DNA from: an uncultured Methylophaga sp. | GTDB taxonomy: Bacteria; Pseudomonadota; Gammaproteobacteria; Nitrosococcales; Methylophagaceae | Length of the DNA stretch: 64,000 bases | Reading direction: 5' to 3' | Assembly: GCA_913055695.1 (NCBI GenBank) | Contig: CAJXKF010000005.1 | Span: forward strand, 124,001-188,000 | In this document: positions 44,086 to 60,389 of the stretch, piece by piece | Layout of the letters: the number at the start of each line of letters is the position of its first letter | Position numbering within the stretch: the first letter of the stretch is position 1 | Program-made: the position numbers and the translations under genes | Notes under the pieces: generated by a model | The model's database searches: none | What the model was told of the DNA's origin: nothing | What the model saw: only the letters and a program-made list of their open reading frames with translations

Positions 44086-44106
44086 GGTTGAAATTGACTG
44101 ATAGAA

Positions 44107-44294
44107 GCACAGAGGCACAGAGGGTAAATCAGTAGCGACTTTAAGGCGTTTTTTTGATCATAAAAGGCCTTAAGGTGGACTGGTAATTATCAAATTTGTC
44201 AGATATAGCCTAATGACCAATCACGGCTTCAGCTTCAGCGTTTACTAACCCGCTCTGAAAAATGATTATGCTCTGTGAACTGAGCCTCTGTGGT
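44107..44294. repeat. Empty inverted-repeat element A (CACAGAGG family)
   Basis: A 188-bp segment between amiC and mutL. Left arm GCACAGAGGCACAGAGGG (44107-44124); right arm is the reverse-complement type, ending CCTCTGTGGT at 44294. The interior has no ORF of note and contains AAGGCCTTAAGG at about 44167-44175. It is the most degraded of four such elements in the window. I see no RNA gene in the rest of this 255-base gap. Confidence 0.6.
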
Positions 44295-44340
44295 CAGTTA
44301 TACCTCTCGCCTGCTGATGATGAACTGCTAAACTAACGCC

Positions 44341-52042: not shown

Positions 52043-52331
52043 AACCACACAGGCACAGAGGACACACAGGACACAGAGTCAAGTAACAGAGCAGCCTCTG
52101 ATTTATTATGTCTTCTTCAATGTGACTCTGATTCTCAACCCCGTGTTTATTGCAGACAATAACGTCTCATCACATTGCTTTGCCTAACCAAAAACAATTT
52201 CACTTTTTTGTAGGTAATATGAGACGTAATGGTTCAGCTCAACAGGAATACTGTCAATTCATTCTCTGAACTATGCCTGGCACAGTCTCATATTCAATGG
52301 TTGTTTATCTTTTCTCTGTGCCTCTGTGGTT
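52043..52331. repeat. Empty inverted-repeat element B (CACAGAGG family)
   Basis: A 289-bp segment between tRNA-Phe and the porin gene. Left arm AACCACACAGGCACAGAGG (52043-52061, with related units to 52078); right arm TCTCTGTGCCTCTGTGGTT mapped at 52314-52331. Inside is a second inverted repeat, ACGTCTCAT (52162-52170) with ATGAGACGT (52219-52227). The short frames that cross it look random. It lies upstream of the porin promoter area. Confidence 0.65.
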
Positions 52332-53738: not shown

Positions 53739-53918
53739 AACCACAGAGGCACAGAGGCACAGAGGCACAGAGGCCACAGAGATTTTTTACTGATTTTTTT
53801 ATCTTACCGGGGGTAGCGGATAAGATTTCTCGACTTCGCTCGAAATGACAGCCTGATTCTTATTTTCACTATTTCCGGTGATTTTTATTTTCTCTGTGTA
53901 CTCTGTGCCTCTGTGGTT
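53739..53918. repeat. Empty inverted-repeat element C (CACAGAGG family)
   Basis: A 180-bp segment. The left arm (53739-53783) has four tandem CACAGAGG units starting AACCACAGAGG; the right arm (53891-53918) is the inverted form ending CCTCTGTGGTT. The interior holds an imperfect ATCTTA / TAAGAT inverted repeat and a CTCGACTTCGCTCGAAA palindrome-like stretch. It stands 59 bases before the dhaL start and forms one side of an inverted-repeat bracket around dhaL. Confidence 0.7.
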
Positions 53919-53977: not shown

Positions 53978-54607
53978 ATGACCATCAGCACCCAATCCAT
54001 CCCACATTTTCTTAAAGCCATCAAAGCCGAGATTGCAGCTAACGCCGACGAAGTCACCGCGCTGGATCAGGCGATTGGTGATGGTGATCATGTGACCAAC
54101 CTGCTTCGGGGATTGGAAGCGTTAGAAAAGCAATCATCTGAACTAGCTGAAATGGAATGGTCTGACGCGTTGATGAAAATCGGTATGACGCTGATGTCGA
54201 CCATGGGCGGCGCATCGGGCTCACTGTATGGCAGCTTGTTTGTGGCGATGGGTAAAGAAGCCAAGAACAATACAATGAGCCTACAGAGTTTGGCCGAGAT
54301 TTTTCACGCCGGCGTGCAGGCGGTAAAAACACGGGGTAAAGCTGAACTCGGCGAAAAAACCATGCTGGACACACTCATACCAGCCTCACATGCCTTGAAT
54401 GTCAAAGCCGATGCAGAAGCTTCTGATGTTTTGGATGCGATCAAACAAGCAGCATATGACGGTATGCTGTCCACCAAGGATATGCTCGCCACCAAAGGCC
54501 GGGCATCATTTTTAGGAGAACGGGCCCGTGGTCATATCGATGCTGGTGCAAGGACCAGTCAATTGATTATTTGTGCTATTGCGGATGTGATGGAAAAATC
54601 TGATTAA
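53978..54607 (+). CDS. dhaL: Dihydroxyacetone kinase subunit DhaL
   Basis: ADP/ATP-binding subunit that phosphorylates dihydroxyacetone held on DhaK. 209 residues. Metal-binding loop DQAIGDGDHVTNLLRG (Asp residues near 29-36), GGASGSLYGSLF nucleotide loop and C-terminal GRASFLGERARGHIDAGA are the DhaL hallmarks. Split DhaK and DhaL usually act with a PTS protein DhaM, which is not in the window. It is convergent with dhaK instead of following it, with a repeat element between. AAGGAAG precedes the ATG. Confidence 0.93.
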   Translation: MTISTQSIPHFLKAIKAEIAANADEVTALDQAIGDGDHVTNLLRGLEALEKQSSELAEMEWSDALMKIGMTLMSTMGGASGSLYGSLFVAMGKEAKNNTMSLQSLAEIFHAGVQAVKTRGKAELGEKTMLDTLIPASHALNVKADAEASDVLDAIKQAAYDGMLSTKDMLATKGRASFLGERARGHIDAGARTSQLIICAIADVMEKSD

Positions 54608-54608
54608 T

Positions 54609-55087
54609 AACCACAGAGGCACAGAGGCCACAGAGATTTCTAATTATTGGTTCAACATCCTGACAATCCCCTGCCGCATAGTCGGGACATTGAAGTTAAG
54701 CAAAAGGCCATACCTCAGTTCTGTGATTTTCAGGTACGTCAATAATTGCGCCTTGTGAATTTCTGCAATTTTATCGACCGTTTTTAATTCAACTACAACT
54801 TTATTCTCGACAAGCAGATTGCAACGATACACGCTATTAAGTTGCTTACCTTTATATGTGACCGGAATCGGATATTGGTTGACCGTCGCCAAGCCTCTCT
54901 GGGTTAACTCAGCCAAAAGACACTCTTCGTAAATTGACTCTAGAAGTCCCGGTCCAAGCTGTCGGTGAACTTCAATAGCCGAGCCAATAATCTTATGTGT
55001 TAAATCATTACTCATAAGCCTCCTCCCTGAGGCTGTAATTTCTAAATATTCAAATTAATACTCTGTGCCCTCTGTGCCTCTGTGGTT
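54609..55087. mobile_element. Inverted-repeat element D carrying a GxxExxY gene
   Basis: A 479-bp segment that starts one base after the dhaL stop and ends 18 bases before the dhaK stop. Left arm AACCACAGAGGCACAGAGG (54609-54627, extended to 54635). Right arm 55061-55087, ending GCCTCTGTGGTT. Almost the whole interior is the minus-strand GxxExxY gene. The same arms bound three empty segments in this window. No transposase is encoded and clear target duplications are not visible (AAT flanks both sides but is too short), so mobility is an inference. Confidence 0.6.
54644..55015 (-). CDS. GxxExxY protein (PD-(D/E)XK nuclease-like)
   Basis: 123 residues. The family name motif is G23-L-L-E26-S-I-Y29 in LGPGLLESIYEECL. 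The second half has the core of a PD-(D/E)XK nuclease fold: N66 in YRCNLLVEN, then E76 and K78 in VVVELK, followed by AQLLTYLKITELRYGLLLNFN. Members usually have Asp where N66 sits, so catalysis may be altered or lost. The family is common in environmental bacteria, often in multiple copies; its function is not established. It lies inside inverted arms and has no operon partner. Confidence 0.88.
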   Translation of the reverse strand: MSNDLTHKIIGSAIEVHRQLGPGLLESIYEECLLAELTQRGLATVNQYPIPVTYKGKQLNSVYRCNLLVENKVVVELKTVDKIAEIHKAQLLTYLKITELRYGLLLNFNVPTMRQGIVRMLNQ

Positions 55088-55105
55088 AATTAATTTCTGC
55101 ACCTA

Positions 55106-56095
55106 TCAACAAGCCCAGCGAAGTGCGGCTGTATGAACCGGTGCATCCCAGTACTGAATCATTTCATCATCCAGCAACGTCACGGTGACAGAACAACCAG
55201 CCATATCCAATGAGGTGGTGTAGTTACCGACGAGCGATCGTGTCACCTCGACACCACGATCGCTGAAATACTGCGCTGCCAGATCGAATACCAGATACAG
55301 TTCCATTAAAGGCGTCGCACCAAACCCATTCACATGGAGCAGAATTTTCTGCCCCTTGGTTGGCATCAGGTCTTTGTCTATTGCTGCTGCCAAGTGTTCA
55401 ACAATTTCACTGGCACTGCTGAGGTCCATCGGTTCACGGCCGCGTTCACCATGGATGCCGACCCCCATTTCAATTTCATTATCACCGATATCAAAAGTGG
55501 GTTTTCCCAAAGCCGGCACGGTACAACTGCTCAATGCCACACCCATTGAGGCCGTAGAAGTGGCGACCTTATCACCCAGCTTTTTACAGGTAGCGAGATC
55601 AGCGCCTGCCTCAGCAGCAGCGCCAACAATTTTCTCGACGATGAGTGTACCGGCAACACCCCGGCGACCGGTGCTGTGGTCTTTGGGAAGAGACACATCA
55701 TCACTCACCAGCACGGTATTATGTTCGCACTCCAGCATTTCGGCAGCAATTTCAAAGTTCATCACGTCACCGGCATAGTTTTTAACGATGAACAGCACAC
55801 CGGCACCGTTTTCCACCTCCTGGGCCGCCATCATCATTTGATCCGGTGTCGGTGATGTGAATATCTGGCCGGGACAGGCGGCATCGAGCATCCCTTTCCC
55901 TATCAGACCAATATGCAGCGGCTCATGGCCTGAACCGCCACCTGAGATCAGGGCAACTTTAGGCCTATCAACCGGCGCCTTGCGGGTCACAAAATGCGGC
56001 TGGTGATTGAGCTTGATAATGTCTTCATGCGCCCTGGCAAAGCCATTCAGGCTCTCTTCCAGAACGCTTTCGACGCCGTTGATCATTTTTTTCAT
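55106..56095 (-). CDS. dhaK: Dihydroxyacetone kinase subunit DhaK
   Basis: Substrate-binding subunit that holds dihydroxyacetone through a histidine hemiaminal. 329 residues. GGGSGHEPLHIGLIGKGMLDAA at the N terminus and the substrate His in GVGIHGERG (about 218) are diagnostic, as is HVNGFGATPLMELY. In a RuMP methylotroph it may return dihydroxyacetone to the triose pool. Probably co-transcribed with the HAD phosphatase upstream (15 bases). Its partner dhaL is on the opposite strand. Confidence 0.95.
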   Translation of the reverse strand: MKKMINGVESVLEESLNGFARAHEDIIKLNHQPHFVTRKAPVDRPKVALISGGGSGHEPLHIGLIGKGMLDAACPGQIFTSPTPDQMMMAAQEVENGAGVLFIVKNYAGDVMNFEIAAEMLECEHNTVLVSDDVSLPKDHSTGRRGVAGTLIVEKIVGAAAEAGADLATCKKLGDKVATSTASMGVALSSCTVPALGKPTFDIGDNEIEMGVGIHGERGREPMDLSSASEIVEHLAAAIDKDLMPTKGQKILLHVNGFGATPLMELYLVFDLAAQYFSDRGVEVTRSLVGNYTTSLDMAGCSVTVTLLDDEMIQYWDAPVHTAALRWAC

Positions 56096-57157: not shown

Positions 57158-57799
57158 ATGGCAAAAGCACTTATTCAAATGGCACTGGACTCTCTGGATT
57201 TCGATCAAACAATGGCACTGGCTGAACAAGTCGCGCCTTACGTTGACATTCTGGAAGTCGGTACTCCTTGCATCAAATACAACGGTCTGGAAATTGTTAC
57301 TGCACTGAAAAACAAATTCCCTAACAACCTGATCCTGGTTGACCTGAAAACAATGGACGCTGGTGAATACGAAGCGACTCCATTCTACGAAGCAGGTGCT
57401 GACATCTGTACTGTTCTGGGTGTTTCTGACAAAGCCACCATGGGCGGCGTTATCAAAGCGGCCAACGCGAACAACGCAGAAGCTCAAATCGACCTGATCA
57501 GCGTTAAAGACAAAAAAGCCGTTGCTACCGAAGCAGCTAAAAACGGTGCGCAAATCATCGGTGTTCACACTGGTCTGGACGCACAAGCAGCAGGTCAAAC
57601 TCCATTTGCTGACCTGAAAGACATTGCTGGTCTGAACCTGGGTGTTCGTATCTCTGTTGCTGGTGGTCTGAACAAAGACACCATCCAGGATACCGTTCGC
57701 GCTGGTGCTACCATCGTTGTTGTTGGTGCAGCTATCTACGGTGCCGACTCTCCAGCAGAATCTGCTAAAGAACTGCGCGCACTGGTTGACGCAGCCTAA
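57158..57799 (+). CDS. hps: 3-hexulose-6-phosphate synthase, copy 1
   Basis: Fixes formaldehyde onto ribulose 5-phosphate to give hexulose 6-phosphate, the entry step of the RuMP cycle. 213 residues of the OMP decarboxylase superfamily. Active-site strand LVDLKTMDAGEYEA has Asp62, Lys64 and Asp67; IGVHTGLDAQAAGQ and VAGGLNKDTI form later phosphate-binding regions. AGGAG at 57144-57148. Strong codon bias suggests very high expression. Followed by a terminator, so it forms a unit separate from the second copy. Confidence 0.97.
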   Translation: MAKALIQMALDSLDFDQTMALAEQVAPYVDILEVGTPCIKYNGLEIVTALKNKFPNNLILVDLKTMDAGEYEATPFYEAGADICTVLGVSDKATMGGVIKAANANNAEAQIDLISVKDKKAVATEAAKNGAQIIGVHTGLDAQAAGQTPFADLKDIAGLNLGVRISVAGGLNKDTIQDTVRAGATIVVVGAAIYGADSPAESAKELRALVDAA

Positions 57800-57831
57800 G
57801 CGGAAACCAATTTGCACTGAGCAAAGAAAAG

Positions 57832-58145: not shown

Positions 58146-58439
58146 ATGAATGAAAATAAAGGTCTATTTGCTTCGATTTGTGGCTTCTTTAAAAGCTTGT
58201 TCTCACCCAGTCCGGCAGCAGAAAGTAAGCCGGCTGCATCTGCCGATGGTCTGACAGGTGTCGAACGTTACATCAGAAACAAGGCTCAGGGTGGTTCCAA
58301 TCTGACCGGTGTTGAAAAATACATCAGAAACAAAACCACGAACGGCAAGCCACTGACCGGTGTCGAACAATATGTTCGCAACCAGTCTCAAGCAAAACCA
58401 ATGACGGGTGTAGAACGTTACATCCAAAGCAAAGGCTAA
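58146..58439 (+). CDS. TGVE-Y tandem repeat protein, unknown function
   Basis: No family recognised. 97 residues. The N terminus (about 6-20, GLFASICGFFKSLFS) could form an amphipathic helix. A Pro/Ala-rich linker follows, then four repeats starting at L36, L53, L70 and M86 with consensus LTGVE-x-YIRNK and spacing 17, 17 and 16. The repeats are basic and look like short linear motifs joined by flexible glycine/asparagine/proline linkers. AGGGGT precedes the ATG. Position inside the RuMP locus suggests a role with these enzymes, perhaps binding several copies of one partner, but this is inference. Confidence 0.8.
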   Translation: MNENKGLFASICGFFKSLFSPSPAAESKPAASADGLTGVERYIRNKAQGGSNLTGVEKYIRNKTTNGKPLTGVEQYVRNQSQAKPMTGVERYIQSKG

Positions 58440-59742: not shown

Positions 59743-60378
59743 ATGGCTGAAATCCAAATGGCACTCGACTCTCTGGACTTCGACGCAACTATGGCTCTGG
59801 CTGAACAAGTCGCGCCTTACGTCGACATTCTGGAAATTGGTACACCATGCATCAAGTACAACGGTCTGAAACTGGTTAAAGCACTGAAAGCTGCTCACCC
59901 AGACAAGAAAATCCTGGTTGACCTGAAAACAATGGACGCTGGTGAATACGAAGCCACTCCTTTCTTTGAAGCCGGTGGTGACATCACTACTGTACTGGGT
60001 GCTTCTGACATGGCGACCATCAAAGGCGTTATCAAAGCAGCAAACGCTAACAACGCTGAAGCTCAAATCGACCTGATTGGTGTTGAAGACAAATCAGCAG
60101 TTGCTAAAGAAGCCGCTCAAAACGGTGCGCACATCATCGGTGTTCACACTGGTCTGGACGCTCAAGCAGCTGGTCAAACTCCATTCGAAGACCTGAAAAC
60201 CATTACTGGTCTGGGTCTGGGCGTTAAAGTTTCAGTTGCCGGTGGTATCAACAAAGACACCATCCAAAGCTGTGTCCAAGCTGGCGCTGCTATCGTTGTC
60301 GTTGGTGCTGCTATCTATGGTGCACCTTCTCCAGCTGAATCTGCTAAAGAACTGCGCGCTCTGGTTGACGCAGCATAA
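59743..60378 (+). CDS. hps: 3-hexulose-6-phosphate synthase, copy 2
   Basis: Second HPS, 211 residues, about 83 percent identical by eye to copy 1 over 208 aligned positions. The frame reaches back to 59659, but AGGAG at 59730-59734 directs initiation to the ATG at 59743. Catalytic Asp60, Lys62 and Asp65 are kept in LVDLKTMDAGEYEA. It is 11 bases from the isomerase gene and forms the classical hps-phi pair, unlike copy 1. Confidence 0.97.
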   Translation: MAEIQMALDSLDFDATMALAEQVAPYVDILEIGTPCIKYNGLKLVKALKAAHPDKKILVDLKTMDAGEYEATPFFEAGGDITTVLGASDMATIKGVIKAANANNAEAQIDLIGVEDKSAVAKEAAQNGAHIIGVHTGLDAQAAGQTPFEDLKTITGLGLGVKVSVAGGINKDTIQSCVQAGAAIVVVGAAIYGAPSPAESAKELRALVDAA

Positions 60379-60389
60379 GGATTAGTACA

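Follow-up and report, generated by a model that had tools for sequence, protein, structure and literature searches.

Genomic context of the GxxExxY gene

The DNA analysed here, called the window as a whole, spans 64,000 nucleotides (G000:C5:124001-188000) of a 2.6 Mb genome (G000) that has one GxxExxY gene. This gene, preceded by the strong ribosome-binding site GGGAGGAGG, lies between two neighbours that we take to be dhaL-like and dhaK-like, and is enclosed by a pair of inverted arms (Table 1). The encoded protein gave 153.1 bits against TIGR04256, whose curated cut-off is 35, and thus belongs to this family; its match to PF13366 reached 149.5 bits (cut-off 22). No other ORF of at least 60 aa is present between the arms, where PDDEXK_3 is the only Pfam family found.

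Table 1. Position of the GxxExxY gene, its arms, its neighbours and the empty elements in the window
Feature	Position	Strand	Remarks
Empty element	about 44105..44296		degraded right arm
Empty element A	52043..52331		after tRNA-Phe gene
Empty element B	53739..53918		after porin gene
dhaL-like gene	53978..54607	+	left neighbour
Insert	54608..55105		between stop codons of convergent dhaL and dhaK
Left arm	54609..54635	+	AACCACAGAGGCACAGAGGCCACAGAG, 27 nt, three CACAGAG units
GxxExxY gene (TIGR04256/PF13366)	54644..55015	-	123 aa, PD-(D/E)XK fold; ORF call and profile matches
Right arm	55061..55087	-	CTCTGTGCCCTCTGTGCCTCTGTGGTT, inverted copy, three CTCTGTG units on the + strand
dhaK-like gene	55106..56095	-	right neighbour, convergent

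The two arms are part of a pair with 96% complementarity over 28 nt. Framing was measured by local matching of the 250 bp left of a gene to the reverse-complemented 250 bp on its right; the best match was scored, with a threshold of 13. The window arm pair scored 27. For 229 sham genes of equal length placed in the window, the median was 8 and the maximum 13, a value reached by two of them. The framing of the gene by arms like those of three empty segments, from which a sequence-only reading of this DNA had started, is thus real and beyond chance.

Elsewhere in the window, two genes at 57173-57800 and 59752-60379, presumably hexulose-6-phosphate-synthase-like, are about 85% identical, and a 33-nt motif is present in four copies at 58250-58432 with a spacing of 48-51 nt.

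Fold, motif and distribution of the protein

The structural model of the GxxExxY protein, with a pLDDT of 95.3, is closest among solved folds to the Cas4 protein SSO0001 (Z 9.8, 101 residues, 4.3 A, 18% identity). Further matches were obtained with other nuclease-fold proteins, Hjc resolvases and lambda-type exonucleases at Z values of about 6-8, which, when below 8, may reflect merely a common arrangement. Residues E26, D66, E76, K78, Q90 and Y94 are kept in 154-157 of 157 proteins. D66 is present in 154 of them, the three others being the window copy (N), L034 (G) and L120 (E, with a stop). The fold and the D-ExK with QxxxY, which we take to be the D-ExK-QxxxY motif, place the family in the PD-(D/E)XK nuclease superfamily, the window copy having N66. 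With N at the catalytic D66, the window protein may be inactive, and the window copy (D66N) is probably an inactivated member still marking the system. In the family, dN/dS was 0.06-0.11 in six of the eight pairs with unsaturated dS; the two other pairs, with few changes, gave 0.34 and 0.66.

By sequence, no relative was found in the PDB at E 1, and the Cas4 profile matched the query, the window protein or its near subfamily, weakly and partially (E 8e-5). The same query gave no match at E 1e-5 in 50,697 phage records, rare matches in plasmids (8 of 72,556 records), one viral contig, weak Cas4 and PDC matches only in PADLOC, and a best E of 0.017 in PHROGs. A defence or phage origin was rejected on these grounds. 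In the literature covered by PMC, we found neither a function for GxxExxY nor a GxxExxY gene with such arms.

Framing of GxxExxY genes in other genomes

Among 369 genomes of the class, 62 contain GxxExxY, with 92 matches in total. The best 70 of these were read and 69 scored, L081 being dropped because of a contig end; the 22 unread matches comprise full-length ones in G312, G121 and G265, near-full and weak ones in G291, G183 and G043, and otherwise partial ones. Inverted arms scoring at least 13 framed 64 of the 69 loci, in 50 of 52 genomes, and 60 loci scored at least 15, a value that none of the 229 sham genes of the window attained. The arms typically consist of three tandem units of 7-10 nt. 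In the same way, a cross-phylum set, formed by the best 80 of 585 confirmed stretches and close to the LGPGLLES subfamily, was scored for 77 loci after L265, L269 and L271 were dropped. These loci belong to Bacteroidota, Chloroflexota, Planctomycetota, Acidobacteriota, Verrucomicrobiota, Cyanobacteria and others, and 52 of them scored at least 13, against 2 of 132 sham genes in those loci. The sole archaeal locus of this set (L192, Methanothrix) scored 8 and is not framed by this measure. When flanks of 350 bp were used on the class, genus and cross-phylum loci together, 127 of 150 scored at least 13; one locus enters this count twice, as it is present in the class set (L044) and in the cross-phylum set (L252).

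Most of the GxxExxY genes examined therefore have inverted-arm flanks in both surveys, as expected if the link noticed in the window is not accidental, and a widespread cassette made of the gene plus its arms is well supported. One locus, L152, holds its GxxExxY gene within a near-perfect inverted repeat of 150 nt in which CACAGAG, CGCAGAT and then again CACAGAG arms are found.

Other small gene families were scored identically, with the best 30 of a longer list for each. None of the 30 ParE toxin genes was framed. By contrast, framing was found for 23 of 30 genes of the four-helix-bundle IVP family (PF05635; L121-L150, class genomes) and for 6 of 30 GIY-YIG genes (L420, L433, L436, L441, L443 and L444). 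The IVP arms are mostly 7-nt periodic, as in AGGGAATAGGGAGTAGGG, and of AGGGAAT, CAGTGTT and GTGAGGA types, some being low in complexity; those of GIY-YIG are a GTCATTCC-like repeat, near-palindromic and so able to imitate inverted framing. Framing is therefore no general property of small genes, and the repeats vary from one framed family to the next. The IVP and GIY-YIG genes are leads for a wider class, not proof of it.

Co-variation of arm type and protein type

Over the 64 class loci, arm similarity, measured by 4-mers, followed protein similarity in between-genome pairs with a Mantel r of 0.32, whereas 2000 permutations gave an SD of 0.031 and a maximum of 0.12. Arm similarity to the nearest protein in another genome was 0.56, compared to 0.20 when shuffled. 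After removal of the 48 pairs with common flanking DNA, r was 0.27 (permutation maximum 0.14) and the arms of nearest proteins gave 0.44 against 0.20. By eye as well, the arm unit follows the GxxExxY subfamily in the class loci. Genes of different subfamilies carry different arms inside one genome in G064, G084, G277, G334, G236 and G386. As two subfamilies with two arm types coexist in one genome, base composition is not the cause. Arm type and protein subfamily, which the sequence-only reading had proposed to compare, thus do co-vary, also without the shared-flank pairs. The same pattern would arise if arm and gene had descended together as one unit. It shows joint transmission of the two and does not show binding of one by the other.

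Arm-only elements

Reading of the G000 genome gave 16 two-armed elements, the gene-bearing one included, whose ends are mostly AACC...GGTT. The genome contains 41 matches to CACAGAGGCACAGAG with at most two mismatches, compared to one for the reversed control. An effect of chance or composition, by which low-complexity intergenic repeats would merely look like arms, finds a basis in the simple tandem units of which the arms are made; considering the sham genes (2/229 and 2/132), the unframed ParE genes and the single match of the reversed pattern, it is of negligible probability.

The interiors of 13 elements of G000 are unrelated, with an identity of 53.5% against 52.5% for shuffled ones, and the arms of different elements are 83.6% alike. 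In these 13 elements, the left and right arms of the same element have a likeness of 0.831, and arms across elements one of 0.835. Since belonging to one element does not make two arms more alike, it is the consensus, and not pairing as such, that is maintained. Arms that are alike around unrelated interiors fit better with recognition of a consensus than with a need for pairing, and the pattern does not fit ordinary MITE copying.

The same values bear on a role at the RNA level: base pairing of the arms within the transcript, of the kind seen in 23S rRNA intervening sequences, would insulate the gene inside an operon or lead to its excision. Some cassettes do lie between same-strand neighbours, e.g. 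at the presumed carA/carB and accB/accC sites, and a comparable layout is found in the IVP family, known from rRNA intervening sequences. Considering that same-element arms match each other no better than others do in G000, and that the window cassette stands between convergent genes, we regard such a role as very improbable.

On account of the unrelated interiors, the simple MITE model, in which empty copies are deletion derivatives, was rejected for G000. A search of 40 element loci with eight GxxExxY proteins revealed no convincing gene remnant in solo elements: it found the gene-bearing L285 and otherwise two matches, with E values of 0.53 and 0.71. The proposal that the empty copies are non-autonomous derivatives of the gene-bearing element hence did not hold in the form of simple internal deletions. 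In G064 there is one near-identical arm-only pair (94% over 199 nt), and likenesses are also seen among the elements of G279.

No target duplication stood out consistently in the 16 elements. Same-element matches of 3-mers at offset 2 numbered 3 for 0.47 expected, and there was one 5-mer match at offset 1 for 0.0 expected. In the same way, the six elements common to G000 and G380 gave no sign of purifying selection on solo arms, identical positions being 254/312 (81%) in arms, 783/953 (82%) in interiors and 2645/2948 in flanks. When arm quality was compared by the type of the resident gene, G000 being left out, the ratio was 38:16 against 13:25 (Fisher p=7e-4), with the provisos that the sites were chosen on G000, that G375 goes the opposite way (6:9) and that the loose scan also matches the reversed control. 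This split points to a decay of arms without a matching gene.

Among relatives, the sites of arm-only elements are empty or hold CACAGAG arms, CGCAGAT arms or both nested. At the site of element A, several relatives have concentric CACAGAG/CGCAGAT arms, and the orthologous site of element B shows another interior, another arm type or nothing. In L332 and L333 (G381 and G371), a different palindromic repeat, TGTCATGCCGAC...GAGATGCCTCGGCTTCGCTCGGCATGACA, is found at the element B site.

Regular spacing of arms was seen in some genomes. In L447-L455 (G084), arm starts lie about 150 bp apart in six of the eight arm-only elements read, whose interiors look unrelated. Contigs C17, C40, C70 and C75 of G371 and C4 of G379 present arms at fixed spacing, like tandem arrays of elements, the recurring distances being about 237, 191, 119, 217 and 53 bp.

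Dispersed arms and the resident gene

CACAGAG arms in both orientations were present in 24 of the 369 genomes. GxxExxY was found in 17 of these 24, against 45 of the 345 others (p=1.2e-9), and 16 of the 17 have a LGPGLLES-like gene. The sole GxxExxY gene of G246, a genome with 28 CACAGAG matches, belongs to another subfamily and has other arms. Additionally, in several CACAGAG-arm genomes the gene's own arms are CGCAAAG-like, not CACAGAG. The CACAGAG test therefore ties arms to the gene and not to one subfamily. Seven of the 24 genomes (G021, G090, G131, G137, G239, G290 and G346) have no GxxExxY match; G239 has 48 CACAGAG matches, and in G090 the reversed control also matches. Within the genus, the gene is present in 10 of 14 genomes with CACAGAG matches and in 1 of 10 without (p=0.0045).

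Nine genomes have CGCAGAT arms in both orientations. The TYAIIGAAM subfamily, identified in six genomes among the loci read, accompanies these arms in 5/9, compared to 1/360 elsewhere (p=1.4e-8). Among the loci read, the four other genomes (G000, G021, G047 and G207) have no TYAII gene. CACAGAG arms in both orientations are absent from all six TYAIIGAAM genomes, and G000 is the only one of the 17 genomes with CACAGAG arms and GxxExxY in which CGCAGAT arms occur in both orientations. As to the concern that arms might be equally common without any gene, CACAGAG arms are enriched with the gene, and 7 of the 24 genomes carrying them are without a match.

These counts bear on the view that the gene is a passenger, some other machinery making and moving the arms and GxxExxY being one of several small genes that end up inside. 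The unrelated interiors of the arm-only elements, the arms without gene in 7/24 genomes and the framing of IVP (23/30) and GIY-YIG (6/30) by inverted repeats are all in line with it. Nevertheless, the kind of repeat is specific to each family, with mostly 7-nt periodicity in IVP and a GTCATTCC-like form in GIY-YIG; among GxxExxY genes, arm type changes with protein type even when they share a genome; and ParE genes are unframed (0/30). We consider this view unlikely.

Mobility and occupied or empty sites

In G277, two copies (L098 and L102) are 90.5% identical over 464 nt, the likeness being bounded by the arms, TCCACGAAA / TTTCGTGGA. Their flanks differ, and L098 has a stop codon. A second pair, L235 and L268, comes from two genomes of Bacteroidota and shows 85% identity over 702 nt; in L235, this likeness stops at an inverted repeat of 18 nt that is of a different kind.

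The L102 copy, which has CACGAAA arms, interrupts a palindrome, TGACGTTACGCA...TGCGTAACATCA, at its centre. Insertion into palindrome centres, hinted at by L102 and by the concentric arms of the genus, was tried and rejected, as outward complementarity was 2.4 vs 2.4% in the swapped null. Second arm pairs were found in 6 of 127 loci, against 8 of 635 swapped ones.

In the genus, the GxxExxY gene adjoins dhaK in 11 genomes, of which G386 has a second one elsewhere. The dhaL-dhaK gap is occupied in 10 genomes, with both neighbours seen, and empty in nine, where only 2-27 bp separate the aligned coding ends of dhaL and dhaK; at least four further genomes stand outside these counts. Five occupied sites hold the CGCAGAT-arm subfamily, four beside CACAGAG arm remnants. 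Other GxxExxY subfamilies are found at sites common to distant genomes, whose neighbours are presumably carA/carB, trpE/trpD, accB/accC and ribF/ileS; at carA/carB, L211, with CACAGAG arms, has flanks in common with CGCAAAT-arm members. One clear within-genome pair, one between-genome pair and presence or absence at shared sites together support the mobility of the cassette.

Two same-site pairs have a cassette much more alike than its flanks, L156/L159 with 97.7 vs 80.4% and L039/L051 with 99.3 vs 87.7%, and in both the identity declines across some 100-300 bp, the trace expected from repair-driven copying. The opposite holds for 96 of the 125 same-site pairs, whose flanks are more alike than the cassette, so that turnover or fast change is the rule.

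These data relate to homing, in which the nuclease would cut the allele that is free of the cassette or carries another one, repair would copy the cassette across, and transposition to new sites would be rare. This is a special form of the mobile-cassette explanation, and the odds of the two overlap. The gene beside dhaK in 11 genus genomes, with nine empty gaps and two subfamilies at one site, the cassette-centred identity peaks of the two pairs and the other sites common to distant genomes agree with homing. As the peak is seen in only 2/125 same-site pairs, homing was rejected as a general rule, and the dispersed arm-only copies, like L098 and L102 at different sites, need movement to new places. 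We regard homing as possible but short of probable.

Proposed mechanism

The most economical reading is that the GxxExxY gene and its two arms form one mobile cassette and that the GxxExxY nuclease acts on the arms; we give it a probability of about 0.6. As a small nuclease with a single domain, of the Cas4/lambda-exonuclease/RecB kind, the protein would recognise the repeat unit of its own arms and cut at the arm ends or at the base of a paired-arm structure. Host repair would then copy the cassette, either to new places or to the corresponding site of a different strain. The arm-only elements would be substrates served in trans, having the recognition arms in common, with an interior that is whatever DNA lay between them. 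Considering that no target duplication stands out, a PD-(D/E)XK nuclease alone does not explain integration.

Tied to its arms, GxxExxY gains a directly testable substrate, and repeat families such as CACAGAGGCACAGAG and CGCAGATTACGCAGAT gain a likely origin. If GxxExxY acts on its arms, the cassette is a mobile element driven by a Cas4-like nuclease and not by a known transposase. More widely, the GxxExxY nuclease, IVP and solo GIY-YIG may belong to a class of transposase-less mobile cassettes, each with a dedicated arm-recognising protein, a tentative proposal to which we give slightly less than an even chance. If it is true, many unexplained dispersed intergenic repeats would be arm-only members of this class.

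Comparison with known systems

The cassette resembles insertion sequences and MITEs in its inverted terminal arms, its gene-bearing and arm-only copies, its intergenic location and its presence or absence at given sites. What sets it apart from them is the lack of a DDE/HUH transposase and of a clear target duplication, together with arms built of about three tandem units and the unrelated interiors of the arm-only copies. The window element has no transposase inside, as a DDE insertion sequence would have, and the elements of G000 are short and intergenic with inverted ends, as MITEs are, without the shared interiors of the latter.

REP elements, inverted repeats dispersed over intergenic regions, are associated with a chromosomal protein, RAYT, a Y1 HUH enzyme. 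The GxxExxY arms are likewise inverted, intergenic and dispersed, and associated with a chromosomal protein, relatives of the window protein being rare on plasmids and not found in the phage records searched; unlike RAYT, GxxExxY is of the PD-(D/E)XK kind, and its arms frame the gene directly.

Homing endonuclease genes are small nuclease genes whose site is occupied or empty in relatives. The same holds for the cassette, the dhaL-dhaK site being occupied in 10 genomes and empty in 9, and two of the 125 same-site pairs have cassette-centred peaks, whereas its own inverted arms, its dispersed arm-only copies and its intergenic sites set it apart.

With the intervening sequences of 23S rRNA that carry IVP, it shares a small ORF between inverted repeats, but the GxxExxY protein is unrelated, the arm units differ and the location here is not in rRNA, the window cassette lying between dhaL and dhaK. 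Finally, the fold and the D-ExK-QxxxY motif are common to GxxExxY and the nucleases of the Cas4, lambda exonuclease and RecB type as well as Hjc, from which GxxExxY differs by being a single small domain framed by arms.
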